This document shows, one piece after another, positions 26,056-27,890 of a stretch of 32,188 nucleotides of DNA. The position numbers were made by a program, and so were the translations under genes. The DNA is from Campylobacterota bacterium (lineage in GTDB: Bacteria > Campylobacterota > Campylobacteria > Campylobacterales > Sulfurimonadaceae): positions 1-32,188 of the forward strand of contig JAMCPS010000178.1 of the NCBI GenBank assembly GCA_023379705.1. The letters run 5' to 3'. Numbering within the stretch: position 1 is the stretch's first letter; every line of letters begins with the position of its first letter. The notes under the pieces were generated by a model. That model was not told the DNA's origin and made no database searches. It was given only the letters and a program-made list of their open reading frames with translations.

Positions 26056-26072
26056 TGATTAAATTTTAATCA
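26056..26072. promoter_or_regulatory. Palindrome upstream of amtB1 (putative operator, copy 1)
   Basis: TGATTAAATTTTAATCA is a perfect 8-1-8 inverted repeat. Its centre is 41 bp before a TAGAAT -10-like hexamer, and it lies 79 bp before the amtB start. The same sequence recurs before the second transporter at nearly the same spacing, which suggests a shared dimeric regulator. Confidence 0.65.
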
Positions 26073-26104
26073 TCCAAATAGAACTAATTACTTTGTTGCT
26101 CCTG

Positions 26105-26110
26105 TAGAAT
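26105..26110 (+). promoter_or_regulatory. Putative -10 box of the amtB-glnB operon
   Basis: TAGAAT (5 of 6 matches to TATAAT) lies 41 bp after the palindrome centre and 41 bp before the amtB ATG. I saw no GG-N10-GC sigma-54 site in this gap. Confidence 0.45.
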
Positions 26111-26150
26111 GGTGGCTGAGTTTTATAACACACACTTAAAAGGAGTAGAG

Positions 26151-27479
26151 ATGAAGAAATTCATTTTATCATTATTGTTACTGCCGATGTTGGCATTAGC
26201 AGAAGATGCGGCTGCTGTAGCGGCACCTGTACTAAATTCAGGTGACACAGCGTGGATGATGATGTCAACGGCATTGGTTATGCTTATGACTCCGGTTGGC
26301 TTGGCCCTGTTTTACGGTGGAATGACAAGAGCTAAGAATATTTTGAATACCTATGCAATGGTATTCGGTGCATTTGTAGTTGGTTTTATTGTTTGGATCA
26401 TTGCTGGTTATTCAATCGCATTCGGTACGGCTGAGGGGTCAATGAATCAAGTCATCGGCGGATTTGGCAATGTGATGCTTAACGGTATTGCCTGGACAGA
26501 TTTGACCAATGTTGATTTGGGTCAGTTGTATCCTAAATTTGTATTTGTTGTTTTCCAAGGAACTTTTGCCGCGATCACCGTAGCTATTGCTTCAGGATCA
26601 GTCATTGAGCGCATCAAGTTTTCGACATGGATGGTGTTTACGGCTATTTGGGTATTGGTGGTTTATGCTCCTATTACGCATATGGTATGGGGTGGCGGAT
26701 ACCTTTTCAACGAAGGTGCGCTTGACTTTGCCGGCGGTACGGTTGTTCACATGAACGGTGGTTTGGCTGGTTTGGTATTGGCTCTATTGGTTGGAAAGCG
26801 TGCCGGTTATCCAAAAACAGCAATGAAACCTGCAAGTGTTATTTTGACAGCGGTAGGGGCAGGTCTTCTTTGGTTCGGTTGGTATGGATTTAACGGTGGA
26901 TCAGCATTTGGTGCAAACGCGATTGCAGGTGTTGCGTATTTGACAACAACCATAGCAGCATCGGTAGCTGCCGTAACATGGATCGCAGTTGAGTATATGG
27001 TTTACAAAAAGGCAACTTTATTAGGTGCAGCAACAGGCGCAATTGCCGGTTTGGTCGCGATTACTCCAGCAGCAGGTTTTGTTTTGGTGCAAGGGGCATT
27101 TATCATTGGTGTCACAGGGGCATTGATCGCTTTCTTTGGTGTAATGGTAATGAAAAAAGTATTTGGATACGATGACAGTTTGGATGCATTCGGAGTTCAC
27201 TTCTTAGCTGGTTTATGGGGTGCAATCGCAACAGGTATCTTTGCTGTTAATGATAAAGCATTGTTGTGGGACGGTCCGCTTAAAGCGTCAGGAGATCGTA
27301 TGGGTCAAATTATGGTACAGCTTGAATCGGTCGCAATTGTTGGTGCATTTACCTTAATTGGAACGGTTGTGGTGTATTATATCGCTATGGCAATTACCCA
27401 AGGTTCACGTGTGGATGAAGAGCAAGAGAGTATGGGTCTTGACGAATCGGTTCACGGCGAACGCGGATTTAACTTATAA
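26151..27479 (+). CDS. amtB: Ammonium transporter AmtB (first copy)
   Basis: AmtB is a trimeric inner-membrane channel that takes up ammonium when it is scarce. The 442-aa protein has a cleavable-type signal sequence ([18 protein letters not shown]) and eleven hydrophobic segments. It contains the Phe-gate block [25 protein letters not shown], the first pore His in [12 protein letters not shown] and the second in [14 protein letters not shown]. The C-terminus is the cytoplasmic tail that meets PII. The ORF-track start at 26109 is not used: ATG 26151 has AAAAGGAG 5 nt upstream and starts exactly at the signal peptide. glnB follows 11 nt downstream, the classical amtB/PII pairing. Confidence 0.95.
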
Positions 27480-27490
27480 AGGAACTGAGA

Positions 27491-27829
27491 ATGAAAAAAA
27501 TTGAAGCGGTTATTAAACCATTTAAACTCGAAGATGTAAAAGATGCCCTTGCCGAAATCGGTATTACGGGTATGACGGTAAGTGAAGTAAAAGGTTACGG
27601 TCGTCAAAAAGGGCACAGCGAATTGTATCGCGGTGCTGAATATGTGGTTGATTTTATCCCTAAAATCAAAATGGAGATGGTGGTTGATGATTCGATGGTA
27701 GATCAAGTCGTTAACACGGTTGTTGAAGCAGCTCGTACGGGCAAGATCGGTGATGGAAAAATATTTGTCACCGATATTAGTAAAATTGTTCGTATTCGTA
27801 CGGGTGAAACGGATTCTGAAGCAATCTAA
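27491..27829 (+). CDS. glnB: Nitrogen regulatory protein PII
   Basis: PII senses ATP/ADP, 2-oxoglutarate and (often) glutamine via uridylylation and controls targets including AmtB. The 112-aa protein begins [20 protein letters not shown] and has the T-loop [19 protein letters not shown] with Tyr at position 51, the uridylylation site in proteobacteria. The B-loop is [11 protein letters not shown] and the C-loop area carries RIRTGE. The start has AAAGGAACTGAG upstream. Being linked to amtB it could equally be called glnK. Directly after its stop come the second palindrome, a terminator and the amtB2 promoter. Confidence 0.95.
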
Positions 27830-27835
27830 TCGTAA

Positions 27836-27854
27836 CTGATTAAAATTTAATCAG
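27836..27854. promoter_or_regulatory. Palindrome upstream of amtB2 (putative operator, copy 2)
   Basis: CTGATTAAAATTTAATCAG is a perfect 9-1-9 inverted repeat sharing its 17-bp core, apart from the centre base, with the copy before amtB1. It begins 7 nt after the glnB stop. Its centre is 40 bp before a TATAAT box, almost identical to the 41 bp of copy 1. It lies between glnB and a terminator, so it could also fold in RNA, but the repeated promoter spacing favours a DNA-binding site. Confidence 0.65.
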
Positions 27855-27880
27855 AAGAAGAGGTCAACTTCTTTTTTTTT
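27855..27880 (+). terminator. Rho-independent terminator after glnB
   Basis: AAGAAG-AGGTCAA-CTTCTT forms a 6-bp stem followed by seven further T residues. It would end the amtB1-glnB transcript and separate it from the amtB2 promoter immediately downstream. The stem is short and AT-rich, so read-through is possible. Confidence 0.65.
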
Positions 27881-27884
27881 ACAC

Positions 27885-27890
27885 TATAAT
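27885..27890 (+). promoter_or_regulatory. Putative -10 box of amtB2
   Basis: A perfect TATAAT lies 4 nt after the terminator T-run and 36 bp before the amtB2 ATG, with palindrome copy 2 centred 40 bp upstream. It implies that amtB2 is transcribed separately from glnB. Confidence 0.6.

Follow-up and report, generated by a model that had tools for sequence, protein, structure and literature searches.

A conserved palindrome upstream of nitrogen-assimilation operons in environmental Campylobacterota, and the AAA-Fis protein AFR as its candidate reader

Two palindromes upstream of the ammonium transporter genes of a Campylobacterota bacterium are identified here, by their conservation and gene context, as control sites of a nitrogen regulon that is common to many environmental Campylobacterota. 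They occur in a stretch of 32,188 nucleotides (hereafter, the window). We consider it likely that they are the operators of a Campylobacterota nitrogen-control regulon read by a protein of ∼250 amino acids, termed AFR (AAA-Fis regulator), which would be signaled via a partner protein with a PAS domain. AFR and this partner appear to be a pair derived from NtrB-NtrC, predicted to work with sigma-70 and without phosphotransfer. The pair is apparently undescribed so far: searches of the open literature turned up neither an operator nor a regulator of nitrogen genes for the Campylobacterota other than Campylobacter and Helicobacter.

Two Palindromes Precede the Ammonium Transporter Genes

Operator 1 (TGATTAAATTTTAATCA; 26056..26072, unstranded) is an 8-1-8 palindrome upstream of amtB1-glnK, and operator 2 (CTGATTAAAATTTAATCAG; 27836..27854, unstranded) is a 9-1-9 palindrome upstream of amtB2; their assignment as operators rests on exact matches to a motif that is enriched genome-wide and, across families, before nitrogen genes. 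All three downstream genes lie on the plus strand: amtB1 (26151..27479) encodes an ammonium transporter (TIGR00836, E 4.9e-121, above cut-off), glnK (27491..27829) the PII nitrogen signal protein (NF008111, E 1.3e-55, and Pfam P-II), and amtB2 (27926..29104) a second ammonium transporter (TIGR03644, E 1.3e-114, and TIGR00836, E 1.4e-92, both below curated cut-offs). Predicted −10-like hexamers on the same strand, TAGAAT for amtB1 (26105..26110) and TATAAT for amtB2 (27885..27890), start 41 and 40 bp past the respective palindrome centers. A preliminary description of the window had reported both perfect inverted repeats and this spacing, and each was recovered as described; its observation that the window holds no third copy held up in a search allowing up to three mismatches. 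Separately, gyrA (window positions 23481-26018; also L134, L045, and L077) adjoins the amtB1 operon, or is found close to it, both here and in several genera, a neighborhood that is conserved without obvious reason.

The palindromes had also been set apart from FNR and NssR operators, and the distinction stands: their half-sites are arranged as TGA-N11-TCA, whereas those of FNR and CRP follow TGA-N6-TCA and those of NssR TTAAC-N4-GTTAA. Two window matches at up to three mismatches are unremarkable in number (0.69 expected), yet both are exact. With independent bases assumed, 0.003 exact copies of the palindrome would be expected in 2.3 Mb (two seen), and 0.03 copies of the motif TGATTA-W5-TAATCA (five seen).

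The Motif Marks a Nitrogen Regulon in This Genome and Its Relatives

TGATTA-N5-TAATCA precedes most nitrogen-assimilation operons of the window's genome. At up to two mismatches, ten sites occur in the 2.3-Mb assembly, against none for a reversed-pattern control. They precede amtB1-glnK, amtB2, an nrtABC-like transporter, cobA-nirA-nasA (found on two near-identical contigs), glnA, and narK (the last two with two mismatches each); further sites lie ahead of an operon that encodes both a PDC-like membrane protein and an Rrf2 regulator and ahead of a small-protein/ABC-permease locus, and one on contig C12, inside a coding region, is probably a chance match. The two cobA-nirA regions (L013 on contig C146 and L015 on C73) are near-identical, which is consistent with a strain mixture in the assembly (reported contamination, 7.9%). 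A narK/nas-adjacent protein is present in many genera; its L116 copy (L116:16727-18361) combines a PP2C phosphatase and a Ser/Thr kinase in one fusion protein, and the remaining copies (L013:14614-16254, on C146 of this genome, and L076:1488-3131, L095:6974-8611, L124:1272-2909, L130:1301-2935, and L320:2618-4339) were assigned by similar starts and sizes.

Across the Campylobacterales, TGATTA-W5-TAATCA is present in 78 of 298 genomes. Forty re-searched genomes contained 110 sites and no match to the reversed pattern, and the loci in relatives place sites upstream of amtB, glnK, amtB2, glnA, nirA/nasA, narK, and nrt. Matches to TGATTA in three families (f2, f3, and f7) were rejected as operators, being rare, mostly within coding regions, and at chance level. 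The preliminary description had proposed the operator of an undescribed Campylobacterota nitrogen regulator at an activator position, a reading that would fall if the palindrome were absent before amt genes of relatives or occurred at chance frequency. The motif is kept before amt, glnK, glnA, and nas genes in many families, and it lies far above chance in its own genome and in relatives; conservation and enrichment thus support the proposal.

These observations leave next to no room for an explanation of the palindromes as chance AT-rich sequence or RNA hairpins. The palindromes are indeed AT-rich, and operator 2 lies after glnK, beside a possible weak terminator stem (GAAGAAG...CTTCTTT), but the reversed pattern is absent both from the genome itself and from the 40 relatives, a loop of one base does not permit a hairpin, and operator 1 is located before the promoter. 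Enrichment and gene context already refute this explanation.

Promoter Geometry

When TANWAT hexamers were counted around every site in both directions, 49 were found at 40–41 bp from the palindrome center (3.3 expected), with a smaller peak of 14 at 29–30 bp (3.3 expected). A variant operator with the core TGTATA, described below, again peaks at 40–41 bp (19, against 2.0 expected). A TATAAT-type −10 thus stands at a fixed distance, as for an operator of a sigma-70-type promoter; the two window hexamers fall within the pooled peak, and at other sites in this genome a −10-like hexamer lies 40 bp off (nrtA and cobA) or 30 bp off (the PDC operon).

If the −10 hexamer is taken to begin at −12, the operator centers fall at about −52 and −41, a difference of one helical turn, and the pooled −10 position supports a predicted transcription start ∼52 bp downstream of the center. 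This position is activator-like, and activation may be inferred from it. It is unlikely that AFR instead binds the sites as a repressor that is released under nitrogen scarcity: operator position alone does not prove activation, but the centers, spaced by one helical turn, lie upstream of the −10 without clear overlap, and AFR is related to the NtrC activators.

AFR, the Best Candidate Reader of the Palindromes

Co-occurrence, gene neighborhood, and domain content make AFR the best candidate for the protein that reads the palindromes. In family f4, the gene upstream of the amtB-glnK operon encodes a 244-amino-acid protein that carries a Walker A motif as well as a Fis-type HTH (PF02954), and at three f4 loci (L116, L118, and L126) a TGATTA-type site lies upstream of the AFR gene itself. 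(We refer to f4 as Sulfurovum-like, f7 as Arcobacter-like, and f10 as Sulfurospirillum-like, tentative labels that rest in part on AFR matches.) An AFR profile (A1) detects a full-length copy in ∼100 of the 298 genomes, including very few of f2 and f3 as well as the window's own (contig C124, L166:5729-6493, minus strand; E 1.4e-61). The closest AFR matches in named genera, from a contig scan, are in Sulfuricurvum, Sulfurimonas, Sulfurospirillum, Sulfurovum, Hydrogenimonas, and Arcobacter.

The distribution of AFR follows that of the motif. The AFR-positive set comprises 101 genomes, leaving out two whose only matches resemble ordinary long NtrC-type proteins; at least two TGATTA sites occur in 41 of these and in none of the 197 AFR-negative genomes, and at least one site in 68 and 10, respectively. 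At least 22 AFR-positive genomes have no perfect site of the expected type. The AFR gene adjoins amtB/glnK in f4, f5, f7, f8 g16, and G254, and it lies within a slyD-AFR-fabD cluster in f1, f10, f11, f12, f13, and part of f8; in the window's genome it is not adjacent to its proposed targets. In one genome (G285, L126:4848-7702), the regulator-amtB cluster also includes, on inspection by eye, a DUF262-like protein together with a toxin-antitoxin-like pair.

Other regulators near the sites were considered as readers. An Rrf2-family protein, P0004, is encoded beside nrtA in an operon that itself bears the motif (with one mismatch); its Pfam match (E 3.3e-22) marks it as a genuine Rrf2 protein, and n-1-n palindromes are found among some Rrf2 operators. 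An orthologue would be expected wherever the motif occurs, yet close ones (74–100% identity) are confined to the window's genus and the next best reaches 35%, while the motif spans many families, which makes this candidate highly implausible, and it was rejected. A LysR gene (L115) and an XRE gene (L105), each close to a single site, were dismissed as well, being present in one genome each.

The domain content of AFR points to the NtrC family. Its C-terminal Fis-type HTH matches PF02954 (E 1.3e-6, above cut-off) and Fis structures in the PDB (positions 181-246). A 51-member AFR alignment (A3) matches Fis and, over two stretches set apart from each other, NtrC-family AAA+ domains, and the AlphaFold2 model (pLDDT 90.9) resembles NtrX, NtrC4, FlrC, and PspF, so that profile and structural matches alike give an NtrC-family AAA+ fold. 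This domain is shortened: from Walker A to PPLxxR there are ∼86 residues in AFR and ∼144 counted on the 1ny6 alignment, relative to which ∼58 residues after Walker A are missing. The missing stretch would hold GAFTGA, the sigma-54 contact loop, and no GAFTGA-like string was found in the 51 members. A receiver domain with a phosphorylated aspartate was not found either; these proteins of ∼220–280 amino acids start with the AAA+ domain. The NCBIfam ntrC model scores AFR at 40.4 bits, in the HTH region only, and its cut-off (558.6 bits) is not reached.

Operator Core and Recognition Helix Change Together

In f7 and f8 g16, the site between amtB and AFR is TGTATA-N5-TATACA, in which the 17-bp 6-5-6 design is kept and the core differs. 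The predicted recognition helix differs as well, being NRITLRKK (with a few variants) or NRATLTKK in these groups in place of NRNTLRKK. Across the class, 15 of the 19 genomes with an alternative helix have TGTATA sites (66 in all; for one of the 19, G241, the helix was assigned from its genus), as do 8 of the 82 remaining AFR-positive genomes (8 sites) and 8 of the 197 without AFR (9 sites), counts that overstate the number of independent events, given that the alternative-helix genomes are mostly one clade. Within f7, 11 of 12 AFR-positive genomes carry TGTATA sites, compared with none of the eight AFR-negative ones.

Two genomes speak to the history of this change. G096, an f4 genome with the NRITL helix, has TGTATA upstream of amtB1-glnK, narK, and amtB2-glnK, where the other f4 members have TGATTA. 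G249, which has NRNTL and TGATTA sites, is nested in the alternative-helix group of the AFR tree, as sister to G254/G044/G096, a placement which suggests that the helix residue and the operator changed in concert on more than one occasion. A simple helix code, in which N specifies TGATTA and I, A, or M specifies TGTATA, is incomplete: family f5 combines TGATTA sites with the helix NRVTLTKK, so that a single residue cannot account for specificity.

That another transcription factor reads the motif, with AFR co-occurring through a common nitrogen lifestyle, is in our estimation quite improbable. Co-occurrence and gene neighborhood are indirect evidence, and AFR sits in a housekeeping cluster in f1 and f10. 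However, the operator core shifts with the AFR recognition helix, the sites vanish from AFR-less f7 genomes, AFR adjoins amtB/glnK in several families, and the 6-5-6 geometry suits an HTH of the NtrC/Fis type.

The regulon assigned to AFR extends further in Arcobacter-like genomes, where sites lie upstream of nrtA/nasA, urtA, eutB, and nifA (G122) and of an amtB2-glnK operon and nifA-like genes (G134); given these sites, general nitrogen control seems to feed nitrogen fixation there.

A PAS-Domain Partner Accompanies AFR

A PAS protein, often encoded beside AFR, was found in all 72 AFR-positive genomes sampled and in none of the eight AFR-negative ones. In the window's genome its gene (contig C97, L336:4380-5066, minus strand) directly follows rpoD. 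This unusual, conserved neighborhood (L336:4380-6934) recurs in f7, f8, f10, f11, and other families, the neighbor of rpoD there being recognized by length and start. The Pfam PAS match is weak (E 0.0015, below cut-off); the structural model (pLDDT 92.4) matches histidine kinases, with the C-terminal domain of NtrB (1r62) as best single-domain match, giving a PAS domain plus an NtrB-like ATPase-domain fold. A conserved phosphorylatable histidine was not found: no alignment column reaches 60% His among 29 members.

Two other proteins were set aside. The DUF234 protein beside AFR in f4 was not seen at the other AFR loci examined. The PDC-like membrane protein P0005, considered as the specific partner, belongs to a family that is often in the regulon yet is less specific than the PAS protein, as it has paralogues and also occurs in AFR-less genomes (full length in G030, weaker in others). 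PDC/cache-like membrane proteins of this kind recur in operons of amtB/glnK and of regulators (L011:11999-12856, which is P0005; L031:1248-2105; L113:2114-2950; L168:3781-4641); they gave no Pfam or NCBIfam match, and an extracellular nitrogen sensor is a possible role.

Proposed Mechanism and Comparison With Known Systems

We propose that an AFR dimer would bind TGATTA-N5-TAATCA through its HTH, centered near −52 (in some cases −41), and assist RNA polymerase with sigma-70 when nitrogen is scarce. Its target promoters would be those of amtB, glnK, glnA, and nitrate/nitrite assimilation, and in Arcobacter-like genomes also those of nifA, urtA, and eutB. Nitrogen status is probably passed to AFR by the constant partner with its PAS and NtrB-like ATPase domains, which may in turn be contacted by GlnK.

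The operator of NtrC, TGCACC-N5-GGTGCA, is likewise a 17-bp 6-5-6 palindrome. As in the NtrC system, the regulon assigned to AFR covers amt, glnK, glnA, and nas, and the regulator combines AAA+ with a Fis-type HTH; unlike NtrC, AFR has a shortened AAA+ domain and neither receiver nor GAFTGA, its half-site differs, and its operator is a single site at −52/−41 of TATAAT-type promoters, whereas NtrC acts from enhancers of sigma-54 promoters. The partner similarly resembles NtrB (NRII) in joining a PAS domain to a C-terminal domain that best matches 1r62, and differs in lacking the conserved histidine and in having room for only one helix between its domains.

NtrC-like nitrogen regulators without GAFTGA have been reported at sigma-70 promoters in Rhodobacter capsulatus and Caulobacter (PMC10274813). 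These keep a receiver whose phosphorylation matters, unlike AFR, which has no receiver and whose partner has no conserved histidine. The cyanobacterial NtcA likewise activates nitrogen genes globally and has a palindrome set at a constant distance from the start, about −41.5 (PMC3898017); it differs from AFR in being a CRP-family protein with the motif GTA-N8-TAC. For Nautilia profundicola, an investigation of growth with nitrate reported rises of 4.5- and 10.3-fold for the mRNAs of its two amtB genes (P < 0.08 and P > 0.10; PMC3701875), which fits nitrogen control and says nothing on its mechanism.

Implications

At vents and in sulfidic waters, the Campylobacterota other than Campylobacter and Helicobacter act as primary producers, and some are diazotrophs; for their nitrogen control, the finding gives an operator with its target genes, together with candidates for the regulator and the sensor. 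The change from TGATTA to TGTATA, together with that from NRNTL to NRITL or NRATL, would amount to a natural switch of operator specificity. We advance only tentatively, as somewhat less probable than not, the further idea that an NtrB-NtrC pair lost phosphotransfer altogether, along with sigma-54 contact, and yet serves as the global nitrogen switch of much of the class through contact signaling from GlnK to the partner and on to AFR. The AFR-partner pair is likely to be a two-component system whose phosphorelay has been lost.
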